Part shown: in pieces, positions 7,581 to 18,976 of the stretch | How positions within the stretch are numbered: the first letter of the stretch is position 1 | Layout of the letters: each line of letters opens with the position of its first letter | Source of the DNA: a virus | Length of the DNA: 31,471 nt | IMG/VR virus record: IMGVR_UViG_3300020193_000088 | Location: 1-31,471 of that record | Direction: 5' to 3' (one strand) | Position numbers and translations under genes: made by a program | Notes under the pieces: generated by a model | Database searches by the model: none | What the model saw: the letters and a program-made list of their open reading frames with translations, nothing else | Told to the model about the DNA's origin: nothing

Positions 7581-8138
7581 ATGTACTTATCAGTAGCCGG
7601 CGGAACTCAGCTTCAAAGAAAAATAACCGAGGATGTTGCTCATTGGGCGGCGAATCAGTTACTTGGTAGATTAAGTAATAAAATTGAAATTGATATAGAA
7701 TTGCGACGTATAAGCAGCGCAGATGGCATATGCGAATGGTTGGATGACAATATTAATCCAAGAGAATTTAAAATAACATTACGAACTGGTCAAAAGTTTT
7801 CCGAACTTATTATTACTATTTTACATGAAATGACGCATATAAAACAATATGCTCGTGGTTATCTTGAAGATCATTACGACAATAAAGTTTCTTGTCGTTG
7901 GAAAAATAAAGATATCTCAAGCCGTGTTGATTACGATGATCAGCCATGGGAAAAGGAAGCATATGCCGAACAGGGCCGATTGGCAAAAAAATTCGTAAAA
8001 GATACAAATTTTGGTTATACTAAAGAAATGAAGAAAATTGACAAAAATAAGAAAAGTTTAACAAATAATAATAATTGTAGCAACTTGCATAAAAAGTATA
8101 AAAAAGATTCAAAGATTATTGAAAATAGTATAAGATAA
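7581..8138 (+). CDS. SprT-like zinc metallopeptidase
   Basis: Putative zinc-dependent protease of the SprT/gluzincin kind. The HExxH signature is HEMTH, in ITILHEMTHIKQYARG (residues about 78-93), and a downstream glutamate in WEKEAYAEQGRLAKKF (about 122-137) is a good candidate for the third zinc ligand. The N-terminal part has an alternating hydrophobic pattern typical of the SprT fold, and the C-terminal 40 residues are a Lys/Asn-rich tail. No signal peptide, so it acts in the cytoplasm. Substrate is unknown; cellular SprT/Spartan proteins process DNA-bound proteins, but transferring that role here is inference. Its stop codon shares one base with the next start (TAATG). Confidence 0.8.
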   Translation: MYLSVAGGTQLQRKITEDVAHWAANQLLGRLSNKIEIDIELRRISSADGICEWLDDNINPREFKITLRTGQKFSELIITILHEMTHIKQYARGYLEDHYDNKVSCRWKNKDISSRVDYDDQPWEKEAYAEQGRLAKKFVKDTNFGYTKEMKKIDKNKKSLTNNNNCSNLHKKYKKDSKIIENSIR

Positions 8139-16107: not shown

Positions 16108-16676
16108 TGGCAGATAGTAGTGTTGTTGGATTAGGAAGCGGAATGGACTTATATGTTGTTTACCGTTTTGTACGGGCGCTTAGCACTCCGTTTAATGAAA
16201 CTGACGCATTTAAGTTGGGATTAATAGACGAAAATGGAAAGAGACTTAAAAAGGCCTCTACTAAAGAAGAAAAGATGGCGATGTCGTATTTTCATCGTTT
16301 AATTTTTAATATGAAGCGTCTATTATCAAAAGTAGGACTTACAAGTAAATTTGCAACATTCGCAGCAGCTTTATTGTTACTTCGAGAAAATAAAGAAAAT
16401 TACACAGAAGAACAAATAGTAAAGAAAATAAACGAAAATATTGAATATTTAAAGAAAAACTCAGTTAAAAATTTCAAAGAGTTTGTAGAAGAGATTACTA
16501 ATTCCACCGGTCCAGCGGTTGCTGGTACTGGCGATGATGTCGCCACTTGGGTTAAACATCCATATCGTGTTGGAAAGAAGGGCGAAAAAAAGAGACAAGG
16601 TAGATATATTAATGGAGTTACTTATCTTAAAAGAGTTGCCAAAGAAGCAGCGAAAAACGGTCGAATACGGCAATGA
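16107..16676 (+). CDS. Conserved T4-like phage protein (189 aa), unknown function
   Basis: Begins MADSSVVGLGSGMDLYVVYR and continues with FVRALSTPFNETDAFKLGLI, a pattern I associate with a conserved late protein of marine T4-like phages. The middle is helical (about 56-130), and a Gly-rich STGPAVAGTGDDVATW segment (about 134-149) precedes a basic C-terminus. AAGGGG lies 6 nt before ATG. Its place just before the endolysin and after virion genes suggests a virion or assembly role, but this is inference only. Confidence 0.7.
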   Translation: MADSSVVGLGSGMDLYVVYRFVRALSTPFNETDAFKLGLIDENGKRLKKASTKEEKMAMSYFHRLIFNMKRLLSKVGLTSKFATFAAALLLLRENKENYTEEQIVKKINENIEYLKKNSVKNFKEFVEEITNSTGPAVAGTGDDVATWVKHPYRVGKKGEKKRQGRYINGVTYLKRVAKEAAKNGRIRQ

Positions 16677-16723
16677 AGACACGTAAAGGAATTTACAATG
16701 AATTGATGATTGGAGGCATAACA

Positions 16724-17311
16724 ATGGCTGAAGAAAATATTTTAAATACAACAAACGACGAATCGTCCTCAGTAAAGAAAAAAGTAAAGGCTGAGGTGGC
16801 TCCTTCAAGTGATCAAGCGAATGTGAATCTATCAGAAAATTTTACACTTGAAGAATTTACATTCTCAAATACAGTTAAGAAATCTGGACAAAATATACTT
16901 AATGTTCCATCTAAAAAAGAAATAGCTTCTGCTGTTGCGCTTTGTGAAAACGTACTTCAAAAAGTACGTGATAAATTTGGACCAACTCATATATATTCTG
17001 GTTACCGAAATCAACAAGTAAATAAACTTGTTGGAGGCAGTCCTAATTCGCAGCATATGAAAGGCGAAGCTGCTGATATAGCAGTGAAGGGATATGATAA
17101 TTATAAAATAGCTTGTTGGATTCGTGATAATTTAGAGTTTGATCAGCTAATACTTGAGTTCCGTAATCCAGAAGAATTTGGATCTGGTTGGATACACGTA
17201 TCATATAGTGAAGGTAATAATCGAAAAGAATCGTTAACTGCGACACTACTTCGGCCTGCTCATAATGCAGAAAATAATCGCGTTGTTTATAAAAAGGGAT
17301 TGGTTAGATAA
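16724..17311 (+). CDS. Endolysin, peptidase M15 (D-Ala-D-Ala carboxypeptidase-like)
   Basis: Cell-wall peptidase expected to cut peptidoglycan cross-links at lysis. The M15 zinc set is visible: SQHMKGEAADI supplies H111 and D118, and GWIHVSY supplies H158; SGYRNQQVN (92-100) is the typical preceding segment. The frame is open from ATG 16673, but the in-frame ATG 16724 has GGAGG 7 nt upstream while the upstream ATG has none, so the product is probably 195 aa. The first 35 residues are a charged low-complexity tail, with no signal peptide, so release depends on a holin. It is followed at once by a spanin pair and a holin candidate, forming a lysis cassette. Confidence 0.88.
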   Translation: MAEENILNTTNDESSSVKKKVKAEVAPSSDQANVNLSENFTLEEFTFSNTVKKSGQNILNVPSKKEIASAVALCENVLQKVRDKFGPTHIYSGYRNQQVNKLVGGSPNSQHMKGEAADIAVKGYDNYKIACWIRDNLEFDQLILEFRNPEEFGSGWIHVSYSEGNNRKESLTATLLRPAHNAENNRVVYKKGLVR

Positions 17312-17811
17312 TGTTTCTTAATTTACTTACTGCAAAAATTATAGGCGGTGTGGCCATTGTGGGTCTTATTGGTGGAGTTTATTTGTACATATCACATTTA
17401 AAATCCAGCTTAGCCACACTTGAAGCAAATAATGTAAAGCTAAATTTTGCTGTTGAACAACAAAAAGAATTGATAGAGCAGCAAAATAAAGACATAATTG
17501 TGGTCGCCAATTATTTCAAGGATTATCAAAAACTTAACAACTCTTTAAACAAATCATTAAACACACTTAATGAAAAATTCAACAAGAAAAATGCAGAAGA
17601 CGTTCAAAGAGATTTAGGCAAAATCGCAAAGGCAAAATCTAAATTAATAGAAAAAATAATAAATAAAGGAAGTAATAACTCTCTTCGATGTCTTGAAATA
17701 GCTATGGGAGCTTCGTTAACTGATGAAGAAAAAGGTGCAACTAAACGGTCGGAAATTAATTCGGAGTGCTATGATATTGCTAACCCTTCCTATTCTGACA
17801 ATGGGAATTAG
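17311..17811 (+). CDS. Inner-membrane spanin (Rz-like)
   Basis: Type II membrane protein: one hydrophobic segment near the N-terminus (about residues 8-28; KIIGGVAIVGLIGGVYLYI) followed by a long coiled-coil-like helix (LATLEANNVKLNFAVEQQKE and on, to about 120). This is the architecture of Rz-type inner-membrane spanins, which link to an outer-membrane lipoprotein to fuse the two membranes at the end of lysis. The start shares a base with the endolysin stop (TAATG). Its last 89 nt overlap the lipoprotein spanin gene in another frame, as in Rz/Rz1. Two cysteines near the C-terminus could form disulfides. Assigned from architecture and context. Confidence 0.8.
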   Translation: MFLNLLTAKIIGGVAIVGLIGGVYLYISHLKSSLATLEANNVKLNFAVEQQKELIEQQNKDIIVVANYFKDYQKLNNSLNKSLNTLNEKFNKKNAEDVQRDLGKIAKAKSKLIEKIINKGSNNSLRCLEIAMGASLTDEEKGATKRSEINSECYDIANPSYSDNGN

Positions 17812-18121
17812 TGCGTGCGAGACTGTTGATAAATTAGAGTTCTTCAAGAAAGAAACGCCTAGATTAGCACTTAATTTAGAGTCCCCACCTCCTATAAGGC
17901 TTAATGATGTTAAATGGATAGTAATTACTGAAAGTAATTATGCGGAAATATTCGACGAATTAAAAAAACAAAATAAAGATCCAGTGCTTTTTGCTTTGAC
18001 AGACGACGAATATAAAATACTATCATTAAATATAGGTGAAGTTAGAAAATACATTATACTTAATAATGATGTATTAAAAAAGTATCGAGAGTATTATGAA
18101 AGTACTAACGATGAGCAATAA
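17723..18121 (+). CDS. Outer-membrane lipoprotein spanin (Rz1-like)
   Basis: A lipoprotein signal is clear: basic start MKKKVQLNGRKLIRS, hydrophobic core AMILLTLPILTMG, and lipobox ISAC with the acylated cysteine at C32. The mature part (100 aa) includes a Pro-rich segment ESPPPIRLND typical of o-spanins. It starts within the coding sequence of the inner-membrane spanin in a different frame and ends beyond it, an overlapping Rz/Rz1-type arrangement. The ATG has GGAG 13 nt upstream, a weak site, so translation may depend on coupling. At 132 aa it is longer than lambda Rz1 (60 aa), with an extra domain of about 70 residues. Confidence 0.82.
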   Translation: MKKKVQLNGRKLIRSAMILLTLPILTMGISACETVDKLEFFKKETPRLALNLESPPPIRLNDVKWIVITESNYAEIFDELKKQNKDPVLFALTDDEYKILSLNIGEVRKYIILNNDVLKKYREYYESTNDEQ

Positions 18122-18449
18122 CACAAAATCAAATCCTCGTTCGTCTATCAGAATAAGAGATGAAAATAAAGATGGAATGATTAATGAATCTGACGTTGAA
18201 ATGAAATATGATATTATTAAGATTAAAAATGAAGATAGAAAAGAAATTGCTCAACGAAAAATGGCTTGGTTTTCTCTTATTGGTATGTTGTTTTATCCGT
18301 TCTCAATTATTATTGCAACTGTCTTAGAACTTGAAAATGCTGCTAATATTATAGGCAATATTGCATCTACATATTTTGTATCTGTTGCTGCTATTGTTGC
18401 TGCATTTTTTGCAAAAGAGGCATATGTTAAAAAAAATAAGGAGAAATGA
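18096..18449 (+). CDS. Holin-like protein with two membrane helices and an EF-hand-like loop
   Basis: A 117-aa protein with two hydrophobic segments (about 57-77, WFSLIGMLFYPFSIIIATVL; and 86-106, GNIASTYFVSVAAIVAAFF) and a Lys-rich C-terminus, the layout of class II holins. The soluble N-terminus carries DENKDGMINESD (22-33), a calcium-binding EF-hand-type loop with D1, N3, D5, G6, I8, N9 and D12. It overlaps the lipoprotein spanin by 26 nt and directly follows the endolysin and spanins, so it is the best holin candidate. The start could be ATG 18096 or the in-frame ATG 18111; neither has a strong ribosome site. Calcium control is inference. Confidence 0.65.
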   Translation: MKVLTMSNNTKSNPRSSIRIRDENKDGMINESDVEMKYDIIKIKNEDRKEIAQRKMAWFSLIGMLFYPFSIIIATVLELENAANIIGNIASTYFVSVAAIVAAFFAKEAYVKKNKEK

Positions 18450-18613
18450 AAAAAATGACAATCACCAGTTCAAATGAATGTAATAATTGCAATTGTATTC
18501 AAGAACAATGCAAATGTTTTGAAAAATATGATGCTTGCAATTGTAAAGATTGTGATTGTTTGCAAGACCCAGATCCATGGCATGGAAATGAAGAAACACA
18601 TATTGATATATAA
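18446..18613 (+). CDS. Cysteine-rich metallothionein-like miniprotein 1
   Basis: A 55-codon frame whose start overlaps the stop of the holin-like gene (ATGA). AAGGAG at 18438-18443 fits best with the in-frame ATG at 18455 (11-nt spacing), which would give 52 aa. Nine cysteines fall in CxC and CxxC clusters: CNNCNC (12-17), CKC (22-24) and CNCKDCDC (31-38), followed by an acidic, His-containing tail (DPDPWHGNEETHIDI). The spacing is that of metal-thiolate proteins such as metallothioneins; there is no signal peptide or membrane segment. No known family is recognised by eye. A second Cys-rich gene follows after 3 nt. Confidence 0.7.
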   Translation: MKKMTITSSNECNNCNCIQEQCKCFEKYDACNCKDCDCLQDPDPWHGNEETHIDI

Positions 18614-18616
18614 AAA

Positions 18617-18844
18617 ATGACAATTAATTTATCGGATGCATACGCCGATTTAAAAGTATGCAGTAATTGTATGCATCCTTGTCACTGCAATAATGCAGAA
18701 GATAAATCATCTTCCGCATTTCGTCTACAAGGCCGATGTTGCGAATTAGTTGGAATTGGTATGACGGATAAAAATGACATTTGTGGTTGTAAAAAATGTT
18801 GTTGTGATATTAAAAAATATCCAGGCATGAGTTACGCTATCTGA
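18617..18844 (+). CDS. Cysteine-rich metallothionein-like miniprotein 2
   Basis: A 75-residue protein with eleven cysteines: CSNCMHPCHC (15-24), CC (41-42) and CGCKKCCC (56-63). The first group includes a histidine in CMHPCHC. Like its neighbour it begins MTI, but otherwise the two are not close copies, so they may be diverged paralogues or partners. No separate ribosome site is seen; it starts 3 nt after the stop of the first miniprotein and is probably translated by coupling. The clusters suggest binding of zinc, copper or an iron-sulfur centre; which one cannot be told from sequence. The 130-bp region after it contains the primase promoter, so this is the last gene of the lysis-region transcript. 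Confidence 0.75.
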   Translation: MTINLSDAYADLKVCSNCMHPCHCNNAEDKSSSAFRLQGRCCELVGIGMTDKNDICGCKKCCCDIKKYPGMSYAI

Positions 18845-18883
18845 TTCACATTTATAAGAAAATAAGAAAATAATTATCTAAAT

Positions 18884-18951
18884 TTGCAAAAAACTTCTTG
18901 ACTTTTGCAATAATTATAGGTATTATAGGCCTTGTGCCTATTTGATATAAT
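18884..18951 (+). promoter_or_regulatory. Complex promoter region of the primase operon
   Basis: Several elements are packed in 70 bp. An inverted repeat TTGCAAAA (18884-18891) / TTTTGCAA (18903-18910) surrounds a -35-like TTGACT (18898-18903). A -10-like TATTAT follows after 17 bp (18921-18926). ATTATAGG occurs twice in tandem (18913-18920, 18922-18929). A short hairpin ATAGGC / GCCTAT (18925-18930, 18936-18941) follows, and finally an extended -10, TGATATAAT (18943-18951). Two promoters with possible repressor or activator sites are plausible; none is proven. Confidence 0.5.
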
Positions 18952-18976
18952 ATAGTTATAAGTTAATTATGGATAT

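Follow-up and report, generated by a model that had tools for sequence, protein, structure and literature searches.

Small cysteine-rich proteins of marine phages: a widespread family with a member beside the lysis cassette of a T4-like phage

Introduction

Metallothioneins of the SmtA/BmtA type (PF02069; PDB 1JJD, 6GV6/6GV7) are small proteins (about 50-80 aa) that carry 9 Cys and 2 His and are mainly conserved at these ligands. The core of the cyanobacterial SmtA, whose sequence matched PDB 1JJD, is Zn4Cys9His2 (PMC10119931). In PF02069, an N-terminal CxCxxCxC cluster is followed by a central YCSxxC zinc-finger segment and by a C-terminal CxHxxCxC cluster. Structural zinc knuckles and zinc ribbons also combine CxxC pairs with His ligands. 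For phages and other viruses, no description of metallothioneins or of Cys-rich pelagiphage proteins was found in searches of an open-access library.

The DNA analyzed here, hereafter the window, is a 31,471-base IMG/VR record of a T4-like marine phage. Two adjacent frames of the window, ORF1 and ORF2, had been proposed from the sequence to encode metallothionein-like miniproteins. Their translations indeed contain 9 Cys in 55 aa (clusters CNNCNC, CKC and CNCKDCDC) and 11 Cys in 75 aa (clusters CSNCMHPCHC and CGCKKCCC), respectively, a size and Cys content that are those of the metallothionein class.

Results

The lysis cassette and the two Cys-rich frames

The region comprises the following features:

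16673-17311, + strand: Peptidase_M15_3 endolysin of the lysis cassette (Pfam PF08291, E 1.4e-18)
17311-17811, + strand: Rz-like inner-membrane spanin (spanin phrog_739/812 among the matches of the PHROG scan; N-terminal TM; resembles spanins of relatives)
17723-18121, + strand: outer spanin, a lipoprotein, overlapping the inner spanin (lipobox-like LTMGISAC; resembles o-spanins of relatives)
18096-18449, + strand: holin-like small membrane protein (from position and hydrophobic segments; resembles the gene that precedes DUF1353 in relatives)
18438-18443, + strand: AAGGAG, ribosome-binding-like site preceding ORF1 (read in the sequence)
18446-18613, + strand: ORF1, 55 aa, 9 Cys (alternative start ATG at 18455)
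18617-18844, + strand: ORF2, 75 aa, 11 Cys, member of the GxGM[ST]DK branch of a CxxCxHxCHC marine-virus miniprotein family
18925-18941, + strand: hairpin ATAGGC-CTTGT-GCCTAT with a short T tract, 3' of ORF2 (read in the sequence)

The placement of both frames after the lysis cassette, linked by an overlap and a 3-nt gap, is as the original prediction had it. The endolysin gene, a nested/overlapping pair of spanin genes and the holin-like gene, which has no match in a Pfam search, all lie upstream of ORF1. The ATG of ORF1 overlaps the stop of this membrane-protein gene (ATGA, 18446-18449) with AAGGAG 5' of the overlap, and a start at the in-frame ATG at 18455 would be just as good; the ATG of ORF2 lies 3 nt past the TAA of ORF1. 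Downstream, a non-coding gap of 132 nt (18845-18976), which is possibly the end of the late lysis transcript, separates ORF2 from a primase gene. It contains the hairpin, which scored under the threshold of the terminator scan and is possibly a weak terminator ahead of the primase gene. The nearest relative of this primase in an annotated phage is that of Pelagibacter phage Mosig (~40% identity). Among the replication genes, the window also encodes an Hsp20-like small heat-shock protein (1077-1574) and a frame with an HExxH-like motif, HEMTH (7581-8138).

Relative to a Cys background of 0.98% of residues, calculated from the 19 larger genes of the window, the binomial chance of the observed content is 4e-9 for ORF1 and 2e-10 for ORF2. 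The nine Cys of ORF1 are packed into 27 residues and encoded by a mixture of TGT and TGC codons; nine Cys per 30 aa were attained in none of 100 first-order-Markov simulations (dinucleotide frequencies), whose maximum was seven. In ORF2, no stretch of 30 aa exceeds seven Cys, a value matched in 3 of 100 simulations, and the argument for ORF2 therefore leans on conservation.

A large family of ORF2 relatives in marine viruses

Neither ORF1 nor ORF2, nor alignments of ORF2 relatives, gave any credible match in Pfam, NCBIfam, PHROG or PDB sequences, and the weak Pfam matches obtained (BIV_Env, DUF7571, GASA) were under the cut-off and look compositional. The proposal that neither frame belongs to a nameable family thus holds for these libraries, but ORF2 does belong to a large, unnamed family of marine viruses. 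Used alone, ORF2 retrieved nothing in a peptide-pattern search of IMG/VR or in a tblastn search of 50,697 phage records, since BLAST and single-sequence patterns perform poorly on such short Cys-rich proteins. The family was reached through contigs carrying related primases: a Cys-rich frame occupies the same place at four loci, and the profile built from these primase-linked loci matched 33 IMG/VR loci. The alignment of 26 ORF2 relatives gives the consensus C-x2-C-x-H-x-C-H-C, a middle C, G-x-G-M-[ST]-D-K and C-x-C-x2-C-x-C, i.e. 9 Cys and 2 His, to which the following parts of ORF2 correspond:

18659-18688, + strand: N-terminal cluster CSNCMHPCHC (CxxCxHxCHC), invariant or nearly invariant in the 26 homologues
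18737-18739, + strand: middle conserved Cys (C41; same alignment)
18752-18772, + strand: GIGMTDK motif (GxGM[ST]DK), without variation in G, G, M, D and K within the branch
18782-18805, + strand: C-terminal cluster CGCKKCCC (CxCxxCxC; same alignment)

In this alignment, a 12-aa insertion ahead of C41 is found only in the ORF2 of the source phage. A second profile detected 154 relatives in IMG/VR viral contigs, of which 80 were kept, including one branch with ECxNDVC in the middle. A DNA pattern for CxxCxHxCHC found at least 120 stretches in IMG/VR, about 100 of which encode proteins of 31-93 aa with a second cluster, CxCxxC[xC/xH]. The core of the family, whose proteins have 32-90 aa, is CxxCxHxCHC-(variable)-CxCxxC[xC/xH] and has about 29 residues with 8 (54 proteins), 9 (43 proteins) or 10 Cys (20 proteins) and 2-3 His; one short member (32 aa) consists of little beyond the ligands. 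ORF2 has both clusters within fewer than 100 aa and matches the family profiles with E 3e-7 and E 1.5e-9.

A search of 84,980 bacterial and archaeal species genomes yielded just three loci with a match to the family. Two of them are phage contigs within one MAG whose genes closely resemble those of viral contigs (identity up to 100%), and a host-encoded origin was rejected on these grounds. At the sensitivity used, the family appears to be essentially viral. It is large, widespread in marine phages and apparently undescribed.

ORF1 and the recurrence of tandem pairs

The existence of homologues with conserved Cys clusters, established for ORF2, could not be demonstrated for ORF1. No homologue was found in IMG/VR by peptide-pattern search or in the 50,697 phage records by tblastn, and the matches listed by scans for its Cys spacing are mostly shadow frames of simple repeats, with one 28-aa candidate. 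Against the 20-sequence family profile, ORF1 gave a weak match within its own genome (10.6 bits, E 0.02); in a locus-wide search its E value was 1.7, reversed ORF1 scoring equally, and the HxCHC motif is absent. Its origin as a tandem duplicate of ORF2 was also considered and rejected: the DNA similarity is at the simulated level, the protein similarity has p 0.035, and against the locus-wide family profile the reversed sequence does no worse than ORF1 itself. Homology of ORF1 to the ORF2 family or to anything else should therefore be taken as unproven. The lack of homologues and the poor yield of the spacing scans would be expected if ORF1 were not a gene, or were a decaying one, ORF2 alone being real. 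However, its Cys density unseen in the simulations, the good context of its start, which overlaps the preceding stop codon, and the content of the same slot in relatives make this unlikely.

Indeed, the slot directly 5' of ORF2 holds a Cys-rich miniprotein in several relatives. In L091, L106-L111 and L243, a sister miniprotein (CxxCGHxSHCG ... CKxCxCxxC) is encoded directly upstream of the ORF2 relative; genes of the sister family, which often adjoin the ORF2 family, include L106:5838-5975, L111:4365-4520, L119:2995-3117 and L180:5904-6219. L180 carries two sister miniproteins in a row and one CxxCxHxCHC member, and L269 two family members end to end. Tandem pairs of predicted Cys-rich proteins thus recur in related phages.

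Association with lysis genes

Among 34 members of the GxGM branch, 23 have a co-oriented gene for a lysozyme, M15 endolysin, spanin or holin at most 3 kb away; the other 11, some of them on short contigs, lack a lysis gene within this distance. At least four arrangements were found. The miniprotein gene lies (i) after the holin and DUF1353 genes and ahead of the primase gene, (ii) directly 5' of the lysozyme gene with a gap of 3-4 nt (L092, L096, L099-L101), (iii) between the lysozyme and spanin genes (L084, L086), or (iv) 5' of the lysozyme and spanin genes (L106, L107). This varying order makes the simple inheritance of one arrangement unlikely, although the 34 contigs include several near-duplicates and the loci are not independent. 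The endolysins concerned are both Zn-dependent (M15) and Zn-independent (lysozyme), and the supply of Zn to the endolysin is therefore not a general explanation. Lysis genes and primase are the recurrent neighbours of the ORF2 branch across phages. NrdB, radical SAM and ThyX, to which the two miniproteins had been suggested to supply metal, are not conserved neighbours of the family.

Conservation of ligands and comparison with known metal-binding proteins

In the 26-protein alignment, the nine Cys and two His columns are 96-100% identical compared to 49% for the other columns; in 20 diverse members of the wider family, the ligand columns are 98% conserved and the others 36%. The median pN/pS of close pairs of family genes is 0.24 (n = 27, simple counting). 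These sequence comparisons show purifying selection on the family and, within it, on the putative ligands. The ligands are kept (98-100%) and the rest is comparatively free (36-49%), as would be expected of a metallothionein, yet the residues G, G, M, D and K of GxGM.DK do not vary in the 26 members of the ORF2 branch, whose identity is only about 40%. The ORF2 branch therefore has something more than bare metal ligation, and the other branches, from which this middle motif is absent, keep the ligands only.

The ORF2 branch shares with the SmtA/BmtA type its size, its 9 Cys and 2 His, a CxCxxCxC cluster and conservation mainly at the ligands. However, this cluster is C-terminal in the ORF2 branch and N-terminal in SmtA, the YCSxxC segment is missing, and the order in ORF2 is CxxCxHxCHC ... 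C ... CxCxxCxC. The comparison with metallothionein family profiles did not bear out a kinship: PF02069 matches neither the window at E<=10 (control genomes being positive) nor any member of the 26- and 20-sequence alignments, and hhalign between the family and PF02069 aligned only the CxCxxCxC stretch (18 columns, 11% probability). Membership in PF02069 was rejected for the absent profile match and the differing cluster order, and any likeness to SmtA would therefore be one of working. AlphaFold2 models were of low confidence (pLDDT 53 and 64) and gave no usable fold, and the fold search made with such a model was empty.

Members in isolated Pelagibacter phages

Family members are also encoded by phages isolated on Candidatus Pelagibacter strains: Gjalp (gp42, QLF88234.1), Eyrgjafa (gp29, QLF88175.1), Mosig (Mosig_00110, QOI69074.1) and HTVC041P, together with a protein of the sister type, CxxCGHxSHC, in HTVC008M (AGE60383.1). 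Like ORF2, these proteins match the same profile and have the N-terminal CxxCxHxCHC cluster (CxxCGHxSHC in HTVC008M) and a Cys-rich C-terminal cluster. Unlike ORF2, they are devoid of the GxGM[ST]DK stretch, and their genes adjoin capsid or baseplate-wedge genes instead of a lysis cassette, those of Gjalp and Eyrgjafa being immediately upstream of the capsid gene. They are annotated as hypothetical or not at all. The HTVC041P copy is an unannotated frame between gp29 and the capsid gene (L317:3971-4153, about 17793-17975 of the record), which likely starts at TTG; it bears out the suggestion that such small genes escape gene callers. No family match was found in 12 further phage genomes (10 Pelagibacter phages, one Methylophilales phage and HMO-2011), so that not all phages of this kind carry it.

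Discussion

The family described here is firmly delimited by its alignments and widespread. Its members would be metallothionein-like metal-cluster proteins that are not named in the libraries searched. For the ORF2 proteins, we infer metal binding, the identity of the metal, late expression and a buffering role from ligand content and gene position. The best reading, which we propose tentatively and rate somewhat below an even chance, is that of a late-made, metallothionein-like Zn or Cu cluster protein that would buffer Zn or Cu late in infection. ORF2, and probably ORF1, would be small cytosolic metal-thiolate/imidazole cluster proteins made alongside the lysis genes. The N-terminal CxxCxHxCHC and C-terminal CxCxxCxC clusters would wrap several Zn(II) or Cu(I) ions, and the 9 Cys and 2 His of the ORF2 branch equal the ligand inventory of the SmtA core. 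The dismantling of host proteins late in infection would free Zn or Cu, which ORF2 would bind and buffer, so that lysis and virion maturation could proceed in a controlled metal environment. ORF1 may be another such protein that diverges fast, occupying the slot of the sister CxxCGHxSHC miniprotein of relatives.

The invariance of GxGM[ST]DK speaks against this buffering role, since it points to a particular fold or partner and less to a protein that simply soaks up metal. The missing sequence kinship with bacterial metallothioneins and the members that have no lysis gene nearby also count against it. The main rival, which is quite possible if not probable, is a zinc-stabilised adaptor in which metal would only fold a mini-domain of the knuckle or ribbon kind, a conserved surface such as GxGM[ST]DK binding a partner, which might be an antiholin, a regulator of lysis or some host factor. 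Five invariant residues at such a low overall identity would be uncommon in a protein that only buffers metal, two knuckles of the CxxC type are present, lysis genes are the recurrent neighbours, and small structural Zn proteins are common among phage regulators. However, the middle motif is not shared by the other branches, which retain only the ligands, and 8-10 Cys plus 2-3 His per about 29 residues exceed the needs of one or two structural zincs, giving too many ligands per residue for zinc knuckles or ribbons. Furthermore, no zinc-finger or zinc-ribbon family was matched in Pfam or PDB by sequence, nor by the low-confidence model. Disulfide-rich secreted or periplasmic peptides, which the high Cys content beside lysis genes might evoke, are hardly credible: there is no evident signal peptide, the Cys numbers are odd (9 and 11), and CxC, CxxC and conserved His are patterns of metal sites.

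Members of the family are frequent in marine viral contigs and occur in isolated phages of SAR11, which are among the most abundant ocean bacteria. If the proteins do bind Zn or Cu, phages would govern a pool of trace metal when the host lyses; this, if true, matters for metal limitation of the host and for the metals contained in viral lysate. A broader proposal, which we consider less likely than not, is that marine phages, including those of SAR11, have a metallothionein class of their own: Zn/Cu cluster proteins of 30-90 aa, unrelated in sequence to cellular ones and often encoded in the lysis cassette, which would capture host trace metal late and affect both lysis and the form of the metals returned to seawater. 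The Candidatus Pelagibacter hosts of the five isolated phages make this question open to direct test, and the miniprotein genes are short enough to be omitted from annotations.

Beyond the ORF2 branch, members of the wider family are often encoded downstream of DNA polymerase and phrog_3704 genes, or next to HNH or capsid genes; the link with lysis is therefore mainly a trait of the ORF2 branch and not a universal one. The phrog_3704 gene, labelled 'ferredoxin' in PHROGs, follows the DNA polymerase gene, often precedes the CxxCxHxCHC miniprotein gene and is a neighbour in 28 of 98 wider-family loci (e.g. L121:8984-9658). In one clade, an ORF2 homologue sits between the lysozyme gene and an upstream gene for a blue copper protein of the plastocyanin/azurin family with a signal-peptide-like N-terminus (PF00127, E 1e-16, L099:1028-1456; also in L100, L101, L114, L246 and L247). 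This placement counts in favour of the metallothionein-like reading. These two neighbours and the many CxxC motifs might evoke an iron-sulfur or redox-active thiol protein, a small one that would carry electrons or serve as a redox switch late in infection. We regard this as very unlikely: inspection of the phrog_3704 neighbour revealed no ferredoxin-like Cys clusters, so that its label looks wrong, the conserved His and CxC pairs suit Zn or Cu better, and no ferredoxin family was matched by the miniproteins. In large viral contigs, a miniprotein gene also adjoins a gene encoding CHASE2 and adenylate/guanylate cyclase domains (L278:5120-7165).
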